DNA from: Acidobacteriota bacterium
GTDB lineage: Bacteria > Acidobacteriota > Blastocatellia > Pyrinomonadales > Pyrinomonadaceae
Reading direction: 5' to 3'
Assembly (NCBI GenBank): GCA_029777145.1
Contig: JAKOSS010000901.1
Location: forward strand, 1 to 5,517
DNA: 5,517 nt
In this document: one piece after another, positions 2,423-4,951 of the stretch
How the letters are laid out: each line of letters opens with the position of its first letter
How positions within the stretch are numbered: position 1 is the first letter of the stretch
The notes under the pieces: generated by a model
What the model saw: only the letters and a program-made list of their open reading frames with translations
Databases searched by the model: none
What the model was told of the DNA's origin: nothing
Made by a program: the position numbers and the translations under genes

Positions 2423-4951
2423 TTACCCAACGCTTCCTTCGAGTTTCAGACCCAGCAGTTTCTGCGCCTCGACGGCGTATTCCATCGGCAATTCGCGGAA
2501 GACCTCTTTGCAGAATCCGTTGATGATCAGCGAGATCGCGTCTTCCTGCGAAATCCCGCGCTGTTGCAAATAAAACAATTGTTCTTCGCTGATCTTGGAG
2601 GTCGTCGCTTCGTGTTCGACGCGCGCCGTGTTGTTCTGGACCTCGATGTACGGGAACGTGTTCGCCTCGCACTTGCCGCCGATCAGCATCGAGTCGCACT
2701 GCGTATAGTTGCGCGCGCCTTCGGCCTTCGGCATCACTTTGACCAGTCCGCGGTAGGAATTGTTCGATCTGCCGGCCGAGATTCCCTTTGAGACGATTGT
2801 CGATTTCGTGTTCTTTCCGAGATGGATCATCTTCGTCCCGGTGTCGGCGATCTGCGCGTTGTTCGTCAGCGCGACCGAATAAAACTCTCCGATCGAATTG
2901 TCGCCCTGCAGGATCACCGACGGGTATTTCCAGGTGATCGCCGAACCGGTCTCGACCTGCGTCCAAGAGATCTTCGAGTTGACGCCGCGGCACGCTCCTC
3001 GCTTCGTCACGAAGTTGTAAATACCGCCTTTGCCCTCGGCGTCGCCGGCGTACCAGTTCTGGACCGTCGAATACTTGATCTCGGCATCGTCGAGCGCGAC
3101 CAGTTCGACGACGGCCGCGTGCAGCTGGTTCGTGTCGAACTGAGGAGCTGTACAGTTGTGAACAGCAAAGCCTTTCACAAGATAGCTATGCGACTCGTCA
3201 ACATCGATATTGAATACAAGATCGTCAAACGCTTCACGAGTAACCTCGCGGACAGGGACGATGAAATGTGTTTCGGTTTCGCGAACCATGTCCCATTTCT
3301 TGTCCGCTGTGTAGCCGACCTGATAAAGCGGTTTCCGGTTAATGATTCGTTCAGGTTGGTTGTTTGAGAACTTTGCTTCGCCACCTTCGCGCACCTGAAT
3401 CCAGGCCTGTATATCAAGTTTGTTGAGGAGCATCTGCACTTGCTGCGCAAGTTTTTCAGAGACTGTGCAGAACCTCACCATCGTCGAACCATTTCGATCG
3501 CAAACATTGCCATCGCCTGCGAGATAGGCGTCAAGCAGGACTTTCGACTGCCGTGGCGACAGGCCCATCAGTTCGTTACTCAACGATTTTTCCGATGCAT
3601 ACTTCCCGCAATGGATCGTGAACCAATCGGAGAATTCTGAAGAGTAGAATTGCACGTTCGCGCCGTTCCGAGAATCGTTCTTGACGACATACGCGCGCTT
3701 GCCTGATAGCTTCTCGATCAATTGCTTCGTTCTCGCGATCAATTGATCTTCGGCAATCCCGAACGCAAACGAATTGACAAACTGCTTGTTAAGCTTGTTG
3801 AAACAGGTCGATCCTTCTGCGAGATAGTAGCCAAGAAGTTCCAACTCATCGTCGTTGAACTTCTCTGAGTCCGGACGCTGGAGTTTGGGGACGAGTACAA
3901 AATCGCCCTTTTTGAGTTCGTCGGCCTTGATGAACTTCGGAGTCGCACTCAGCAACTTCTTCGTGTCGACTTCCGGCAACCAACCGTTGCGCGGCTTTCT
4001 TGGTTTCAAAACGTCGGTCCGCTTGATCGCGTAAACCGGATGCTCTGGCGTTAACCTGAAAGCGTTGTACCTCGACATCGGTCGGACGGTGATCATTTCG
4101 CCCTTGAAGTTCCGAACCATCGCGGCGCGAACCTTCTGTAATTTGCCGTTGTGGTCGTAAACGCTGTCGCCGGCTTTGATCCCTTCGATGTTCCGCCAAC
4201 CTTCCGCCGTGAGGACTTTCTCACCAGCTGGGTGGCATCCCTCATTATATGCGACGTAAGCACCTTCTTCCGCAACAATTAGCGTTCTTTCAAACTGCCC
4301 CGATTCCTGCGTGTTGATGCGGAAATAGGTGGACAATTCCATCGGGCAACGGACTCCTTTCGGGATGAAAACAAACGATCCGTCAGAGAAAACGGCAGAG
4401 TTGAGAGCGGCGTAGAAGTTGTCGCCGACCGGAACGACCGATCCGAGATACTTCTTGATCAGATCCGGATGCTCGACGATCGCTTCCGAGAACGGCATAA
4501 AGATCACGCCTGCTTTCTTTAGCTTCTCTTTGTAAGTCGTCGCGACTGAAACCGAGTCGAAAACGGCGTCGACCGCAACGTTCGCGAGCATCTTCTGCTC
4601 CGAAAGCGGAATACCGAGCTTTTCGAACGTCTTCAAAAGCTCCGGATCGACCTCTTCGAGGCTCTGCTTTTTTGCCTTTTGGCGCGGTGCGGCGTAATAC
4701 GTGATGTCCTGAAAATTGATGTGCGGATAGACGAAGTTCGCCCACGAATCGGGCTGTTTCATCGTCAGCCACTGGCGAAATGCTTTGAGACGAAACTCGA
4801 GCATCCATTCCGGCTCGTCCTTCTTCGCGCTGATCAAACGGATCGTGTCTTCCGTCAGACCTTTCGGAATGGTTTCGGTCTCGATGTCTGTGACAAACCC
4901 GTACTTATATTCACGGTTTGCCAGGTGTTCCAATGTTGCCGACGATGACAT
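2423..4951 (-). CDS. sufB: SufB, Fe-S cluster scaffold subunit, interrupted by an in-frame intein
   Basis: The precursor is 842 residues: N-extein 1-238, intein 239-599, C-extein 600-842. Spliced SufB would be 481 residues, normal for the family. SufB accepts sulfur from the cysteine desulfurase and builds clusters within SufBCD. Key residues known from E. coli SufB are all present: R211 and N213 in FRINTQESG (R226, N228), C600 (C254), Q631 and W633 in TVQNWYAG (Q285, W287), K650 (K303), C752 in TQCDSMLIG (C405) and E779-H780-E781 (E432-H433-E434). The C-terminus GFCKEVFRELPMEYAVEAQKL is typical. The ATG at 4951-4949 follows the regulator's stop by 2 bases, with AGGA 7 bases upstream. Nothing is frameshifted, so a functional protein is expected if splicing works. 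Codons in the last fifty or so N-extein positions look unlike the rest (see findings). Confidence 0.97.
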   Translation of the reverse strand: MSSSATLEHLANREYKYGFVTDIETETIPKGLTEDTIRLISAKKDEPEWMLEFRLKAFRQWLTMKQPDSWANFVYPHINFQDITYYAAPRQKAKKQSLEEVDPELLKTFEKLGIPLSEQKMLANVAVDAVFDSVSVATTYKEKLKKAGVIFMPFSEAIVEHPDLIKKYLGSVVPVGDNFYAALNSAVFSDGSFVFIPKGVRCPMELSTYFRINTQESGQFERTLIVAEEGAYVAYNEGCHPAGEKVLTAEGWRNIEGIKAGDSVYDHNGKLQKVRAAMVRNFKGEMITVRPMSRYNAFRLTPEHPVYAIKRTDVLKPRKPRNGWLPEVDTKKLLSATPKFIKADELKKGDFVLVPKLQRPDSEKFNDDELELLGYYLAEGSTCFNKLNKQFVNSFAFGIAEDQLIARTKQLIEKLSGKRAYVVKNDSRNGANVQFYSSEFSDWFTIHCGKYASEKSLSNELMGLSPRQSKVLLDAYLAGDGNVCDRNGSTMVRFCTVSEKLAQQVQMLLNKLDIQAWIQVREGGEAKFSNNQPERIINRKPLYQVGYTADKKWDMVRETETHFIVPVREVTREAFDDLVFNIDVDESHSYLVKGFAVHNCTAPQFDTNQLHAAVVELVALDDAEIKYSTVQNWYAGDAEGKGGIYNFVTKRGACRGVNSKISWTQVETGSAITWKYPSVILQGDNSIGEFYSVALTNNAQIADTGTKMIHLGKNTKSTIVSKGISAGRSNNSYRGLVKVMPKAEGARNYTQCDSMLIGGKCEANTFPYIEVQNNTARVEHEATTSKISEEQLFYLQQRGISQEDAISLIINGFCKEVFRELPMEYAVEAQKLLGLKLEGSVG
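3155..4237 (-). mobile_element. SufB intein with two-motif LAGLIDADG homing endonuclease
   Basis: This 361-residue insertion (precursor residues 239-599) lies between EG and CTAPQF of SufB. The splicing chemistry looks complete: Cys239 as first residue, a block B TPEH motif (301-304, His304), block F VFNIDVDESHSYLVKG (579-594, with His588), and the C-terminal FAVHN (595-599) with penultimate His598 and Asn599, followed by Cys600 as the +1 nucleophile. The central part holds two LAGLIDADG-type motifs, LLGYYLAEG (372-380) and LLDAYLAGDG (472-481), whose acidic residues E379 and D480 are those expected to bind the catalytic metal. No stop or frameshift interrupts it, so both splicing and homing may be active. 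Boundaries come from comparison with uninterrupted SufB (E. coli EGCSAP) and from the intein termini. Size is close to the roughly 360-residue mycobacterial SufB intein. Codon use is more AT-rich than in the flanking genes. Confidence 0.95.

Follow-up and report, generated by a model that had tools for sequence, protein, structure and literature searches.

The locus described here raises the question of why an acidobacterial SufB protein is interrupted at the very residue through which sulfur enters and whether the interrupting element is still able to splice and to move. The window, the whole 5,517-nucleotide stretch of DNA that was analyzed, encodes on its minus strand (4951-2423) an 842-aa SufB precursor, which corresponds to a 481-aa extein once a 361-aa insert is removed. 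We consider it very probable that this insert is a mobile intein, with Cys1 as its nucleophile and a homing endonuclease of the LAGLIDADG type, located at the sulfur-entry position, and that it would splice, cut DNA, and home. The N-extein (residues 1-238, ending in AYNEG; 4238..4951, minus strand) and the C-extein (residues 600-842 plus the stop codon; 2423..3154, minus strand) were assigned by profile matches and by alignment with E. coli SufB; combined, the two halves score 881.7 bits against PRK11814 and 636.6 bits against TIGR01980, versus curated cut-offs of 717 and 346.4 bits, respectively. Between them, the intein runs in frame from C1 to N361 (precursor residues 239-599; 3155..4237, minus strand). 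When aligned with E. coli SufB (5awf_A, 495 aa), Cys254 faces precursor residue 239 and, in the second half, residue 600, whose codon (3152..3154, minus strand) supplies the +1 nucleophile. The Cys254 equivalent is therefore extein Cys239, and by counting along the same alignment, the Cys405 equivalent is extein Cys391. The earlier note had placed a 361-residue insertion at these coordinates, had listed Cys1, TPEH, DESHSY, the terminal HN, and a +1 Cys as its motifs, and had equated Cys600 with Cys254. The coordinates proved to be exact, the motifs are present (TPEH at intein residues 63-66, DESHSY at 347-352, and the terminal HN at 360-361), and both junction residues lie opposite Cys254. Furthermore, intein-free relatives read through the site: in 24 of 24 such loci, the frame is unbroken across it, with codons neither missing nor extra.

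Class 1 inteins are characterized by Cys, Ser, or Thr at residue 1, a TxxH sequence in Block B, a His-Asn end, and Cys, Ser, or Thr at +1; class 3 inteins are without Cys1 and have a Cys at Block F position 4. The window intein shows the class 1 features, with Cys1, the Block B TxxH, a His-Asn end, and Cys at +1, and assignment to class 3 is ruled out by Cys1 and by Asn343 at Block F position 4. Based on sequence and predicted fold, it has a HINT fold split by a two-motif LAGLIDADG endonuclease. The N-terminal part of the HINT domain covers about residues 1-124 (3866..4237, minus strand; this boundary is approximate and derives from the span matched by I-DmoI) and includes Block B, TPEH (4040..4051, minus strand). 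The C-terminal part covers about residues 316-361 (3155..3292, minus strand) and includes Blocks F and G, with Block F, VFNIDVDESHSY, at residues 341-352 (3182..3217, minus strand). Searches against intein and LAGLIDADG families gave a divided answer, as Pfam LAGLIDADG_3 and the NCBIfam C-terminal intein model TIGR01443 (19.9 versus 15.6 bits) exceeded their cut-offs, whereas the general intein and HINT models of Pfam scored below theirs. For the splicing part, domain libraries are weak evidence by themselves, so its identification draws on the motifs, the family alignment, and the predicted fold.

The family alignment comprises 133 inteins, 26 from the window and the genome loci and 107 from the protein search, some of them nearly or wholly identical (for instance, L007 and L071). 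C1, T63, H66, N343, H360, and N361 are invariant in all 133. Because the protein-search rows had been prefiltered for a starting C, a terminal HN, and more than 430 extein residues, C1 and HN carry independent weight only in the 26 other inteins, all of which have both. Residue 350 is His in 84, Asn in 25, Ser in 20, Gln in 3, and Asp in 1 of the 133 inteins, and His350 of the window is hence not family-wide. Asn343 (3209-3211) replaces the usual Block F Asp in every row, and an acidic residue follows two positions later in 131 (D in 120 and E in 11). In known structures, the usual Asp position is occupied by D in 2cw7 and 2jmz and by N in 2lwy. In this alignment, Asn343 is a family-wide variation at the position; like the subthreshold Pfam scores, it counts as a point against the preferred reading. 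In structural alignments, PI-PkoII (2cw7), TliVMA (7qsu), and PI-SceI (1vde) are 18 to 22% identical to the window intein, and unlike it, they reside in host proteins other than SufB. Sequence, predicted fold, conservation, and distribution thus agree with the earlier proposal of an apparently splicing-competent intein.

Insertion at this site is widespread. An intein-seeded protein search with an E-value limit of 1e-3 gave 473 proteins. Its best 120 were taken, and a second search seeded with L019, a distant member, contributed 81 new proteins from its best 120 of 435, bringing the number to 201. Among these listed matches, 196 of 201 carry an insert at exactly the Cys254-equivalent site, and 195 of these inserts span Cys to His-Asn and are followed by Cys, the exception being P0058, which is truncated on the N side; the remaining five proteins (485 to 607 aa) are without a whole precursor. 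A screen with two peptide patterns yielded 19 genome loci, and every one of them likewise has the insert at exactly this SufB site. The host names of the loci include Acidobacteriota, Cyanobacteriota, Latescibacterota, Methylovulum, Bipolaricaulota, Acetothermia, and Poribacteria and, from the Patescibacteria, Microgenomates, Roizmanbacteria, and others; the L019-seeded search added Armatimonadetes, Fervidibacter, Chloroflexi, Eisenbacteria, Omnitrophica, and Gottesmanbacteria. Same-site SufB inteins from Acidobacteriota, Cyanobacteriota, and others are 43 to 93% identical to the window intein among the matches listed. Locus L001 carries a copy with 86% identity, and P0001, a public-database protein under an Acidobacteria name on a 482-kb contig, carries one with 93% identity. 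Some of the same-site hosts differ in having additional inteins, close to extein positions 128, 191, and 308, and at least two inteins occur in the SufB proteins P0083, P0102, P0108, P0115, P0080, and others. Mapped by counting, the extra site at about 308 is a few residues from E. coli T326/K328, which have been proposed as sulfur-tunnel residues.

The intein of M. tuberculosis SufB (Pps1) is reported to interrupt the same host protein at the same EG-then-Cys1 junction, and with 359 aa, an endonuclease domain, a terminal His-Asn, and a Cys+1, it resembles the 361-aa window intein (PMC8891592, PMC8735848). The window intein lies after the G of EG and before the sulfur-entry Cys, which is the M. 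tuberculosis site as judged by the junction residues only; position -5 is His in M. tuberculosis SufB but Ala in the window, and the host lineages differ. The M. leprae intein (SufB-b in PMC5050341), as described there, is also in SufB but probably at another insertion site (PMC8891592, PMC5050341). No mycobacterial name was among the matches listed in the protein and locus searches, where most rows are nameless. The element is a further instance of a known intein type at a known insertion site, and a SufB intein at this site is not unusual. The earlier suggestion that the host might be novel is weakened by the M. tuberculosis site and by the Acidobacteria-named intein that is already public (P0001). 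A literature search, which had most subscription papers outside its reach, found no paper joining intein, SufB, and Acidobacteri. What is new here is the breadth of insertion at the sulfur-entry codon, a strongly supported jump between SufB types, and the divergence of the intein versus its operon in the nearest relative. One intein family uses one SufB site, at the sulfur-entry cysteine codon, across many bacterial phyla; hosts presumably have little freedom to change an invariant active-site codon, which as a target would also supply the +1 nucleophile for free.

Closer to the window, the family of G003 comprises 119 genomes, including G012, which is the genome of L018 (Pyrinomonas sp.). A SufB match was found in 108 of them, and 12 of these matches were not scorable and were left out. 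The intein is present in 6 of the 96 scorable SufBs (G001, G002, G003, G011, G012, and G024). In the other 90, the C-terminal SufB piece lies in an open frame of 479 to 610 aa, which could not accommodate both SufB and an intein of at least 230 aa, and for 24 of the 90, the site is empty in the DNA itself. L032 (G042), with an extein 96.0% identical to that of the window, has an empty site; in L001 (G001), where the extein is 98.5% identical, the site is filled. On an extein DNA tree with 35 rows, three state changes are needed, each forced by starred branches, compared with an average of 9.5 for shuffled labels. In wider samples, counted with E values of up to 1e-40, the intein was found in 4 of 396 for the phylum of G003, 4 of 201 for the family of G006, 5 of 100 for the phylum of G008 (one only at 9.5e-42 and perhaps a different intein), and 1 of 291 for the phylum of G004. 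The distribution in the G003 family is sporadic.

Comparison of intein and extein trees revealed at least one discordant copy. Two extein types are set apart by long branches of 1.05 and 1.49, compared with 0.23 and 0.6 for the matching branches of the intein tree. The P0081 extein is 80 to 83% like those of P0049, P0044, and L005, and its clade has a support of 93/100, though it is not starred; the P0081 intein is only 52 to 54% like the inteins of these proteins and 76 to 79% like those of P0115, L012, and P0104. Holding this intein with its extein kin was rejected (AU test, P = 1.9e-45, 11 rows). Two weaker tests rejected neither its grouping with all members of its own extein type (P = 0.198, 41 rows) nor, in the extein data, a position beside the other SufB type (P = 0.171); re-rooting can satisfy both groupings. 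The trees strongly support the view that the P0081 intein would have jumped between two deeply split SufB types. P0072 is also discordant by identity (intein, 71% like P0044; extein, 65% like P0117), and placement of its extein with P0049 and P0044 was rejected (P = 0.0096); it was dropped as a second tree-proven jump, as the placement tests for its intein gave P values of 0.307, 0.513, and 0.538.

Synonymous sites point in the same direction for the window itself. When the window is compared with L001, identity at fourfold sites amounts to 147 of 227 positions in the extein, 51 of 71 in rrf2, 62 of 107 in phzF, 73 of 113 in sufC, and 32 of 47 in ridA, versus 50 of 141 in the intein, for which the chance level is 0.26 (intein versus extein, Fisher P = 6.0e-8, or about 2e-6 when corrected for 32 pairs). 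These figures suggest that the intein copies parted earlier than the surrounding genes, as expected if at least one of the copies was acquired or replaced. Of the 32 pairs, 13 have an intein less alike than the extein (uncorrected P < 0.05), 17 show no difference, and 2 have an intein that is more alike. GC3 of the intein is also below that of the extein in every one of 15 genomes, so part of the synonymous difference may come from a general codon-bias or rate effect. Taken together, the P0081 discordance and a synonymous divergence of the intein beyond that of its own operon point to probable horizontal movement. In a separate comparison, the Methylovulum inteins of L006 and L007 are more alike than their exteins at fourfold sites (133/152 versus 163/218, P = 0.0024), perhaps reflecting a recent exchange. 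A sliding DNA comparison showed no clear co-conversion tract by eye. Searches for a phage or plasmid origin gave no support for it: none of 47 viral-contig stretches matching two peptide patterns encodes a relative, the best 20 of 22 matches in phage records are at 20 to 31% identity and lie chiefly within genes for methyltransferases, thymidylate synthases, and terminases, and there was no plasmid match at 1e-20. Transfer by phage may have occurred all the same.

The likely vehicle is the endonuclease domain (about residues 125-315; 3293..3865, minus strand). Motif 1, LLGYYLAEG (3812..3838, minus strand), has the acidic Glu141 (E in 131 of 133 inteins, D in 1, and A in 1), and motif 2, LLDAYLAGDGN (3506..3538, minus strand), has Asp242 (D in 129 of 133, E in 1, T in 1, and a gap in 2). 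The window copy thus keeps two motifs with both acidic residues and a matching predicted fold. In relatives, the endonuclease part is under purifying selection, with dN/dS values of 0.109 (L002-L003), 0.110 (L003-L027), and 0.090 (L006-L007) in three of the seven pairs compared; dS was saturated or above 3 in the remaining four. Sequence, predicted fold, conservation, and distribution therefore agree with the earlier view of an apparently intact homing endonuclease that would cut DNA. The homing cycle consists of invasion, then endonuclease decay, and then loss. Eroded copies at the same site fit this cycle together with the empty sites: L016 (4840-5658), a near relative of the window locus, has a 273-aa intein with its splicing parts kept and a much shortened endonuclease core that aligns poorly, and much of the endonuclease is gone from the inteins of P0077 (267 aa) and P0116 (230 aa). 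These derivatives, and the rarity of the intein among the scorable SufBs of the G003 family, would also be in keeping with an intein that splices but whose endonuclease is inactive and only looks intact, the element now being inherited vertically. Although this is the alternative that fares best, we regard it as unlikely, given the retained acidic residues and two-motif fold, the selection on the endonuclease of relatives, and the greater fourfold divergence of the window and L001 inteins than of their operon genes, to which codon bias may add.

The preferred reading, a mobile intein, would have the following consequences for SufB. Translation would yield the 842-aa precursor, in which the HINT domain would activate the bond before Cys1; Cys600 would attack the activated bond and Asn361 would cyclize, releasing the 361-aa intein and joining the 481-aa SufB. 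Once released, the intein would cleave sufB alleles that have an empty site, across the conserved codons surrounding the sulfur-entry cysteine, and repair would copy the intein into the cut allele, so that movement would have been by homing rather than by another recombination route. Cys600, a splicing nucleophile first, would then become a Cys254-type sulfur acceptor. Cys254 is reported to be the sulfur-entry residue of SufB, critical for growth and for sulfur acceptance from SufE (PMC6006206, PMC5571166). PMC8891592 cites the Cys254 paper, in passages where Cys+1 is not identified as the sulfur acceptor. According to the summary in PMC8529194, through which Topilina 2015 and Huet 2006 are cited here, the M. 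tuberculosis SufB intein prevents SufC and SufD binding before splicing, and this fits the earlier claim that no functional scaffold can exist until splicing has occurred.

It has further been reported that splicing of the M. tuberculosis intein, at the same junction, is oxidant sensitive through a Cys1-Cys+1 disulfide (review, PMC8529194). In light of this, and of the +1 Cys being itself the sulfur acceptor (PMC6006206), the intein might have been kept as a regulatory switch, with oxidation, nitrosation, or persulfidation of Cys1/Cys600 delaying splicing and tying SufB maturation to the redox or sulfur state. This is improbable in view of the 90 of 96 scorable G003-family SufBs, the sister row L032 included, that manage without the intein, and of a sporadic distribution such as a mobile element would give. 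Slimmer still is the chance of a built-in gate that, since splicing nucleophile and sulfur-entry residue are one, could stall splicing upon persulfide formation on Cys600 or upon oxidation and make SufB maturation sulfur or redox responsive in many unrelated phyla; if true, sulfur and redox control of SufB splicing would be open to study outside pathogens. A dead, nonsplicing remnant or an assembly artifact is ruled out for practical purposes by the open frame, the conserved splicing residues, the independent copies in P0001 and L001, and an extein under strong constraint (dN/dS of 0.014 versus L001), with nothing found in its favor.

The operon context, which the earlier note had offered as a possible novelty, is a lineage trait. 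All genes are on the minus strand: an rrf2-type regulator gene (4954..5439; PF02082 and rrf2_super) is directly upstream of sufB, followed after sufB by a ridA-like gene (2043..2420; 125 aa, TIGR00004), for which a probable TTG start two bases past the sufB stop was chosen, a phzF-family isomerase gene identified by profile searches (1086..1871), and sufC (323..1081; TIGR01978, 374 versus a cut-off of 212.8 bits). The partial open reading frame at 1..173, cut by the window end, encodes the first 57 residues of what we take, from its translation, its position, and a familiar motif, to be SufD; in G001, a SufBD-core match lies further along the same strand. The suggested novelty is ruled out by intein-free L062, where ridA, phzF, and sufC follow sufB in the same order, although rrf2 was not found at this sufB locus. 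The order with ridA-like and phzF-family genes between sufB and sufC (323-2420) is common to L001 and L002. No RNA families (at gathering cut-offs) or tRNAs were detected in the window. The Rrf2-family regulator ends two bases upstream of the sufB start and has several cysteines; it is perhaps a cluster-sensing regulator of the operon. Finally, short tandem repeats, GATTTTA (3.6 copies), GTTCCC (3.2 copies), and CTGACCA (3.4 copies), lie in the stretch from sufC to the probable start of sufD (179-321).
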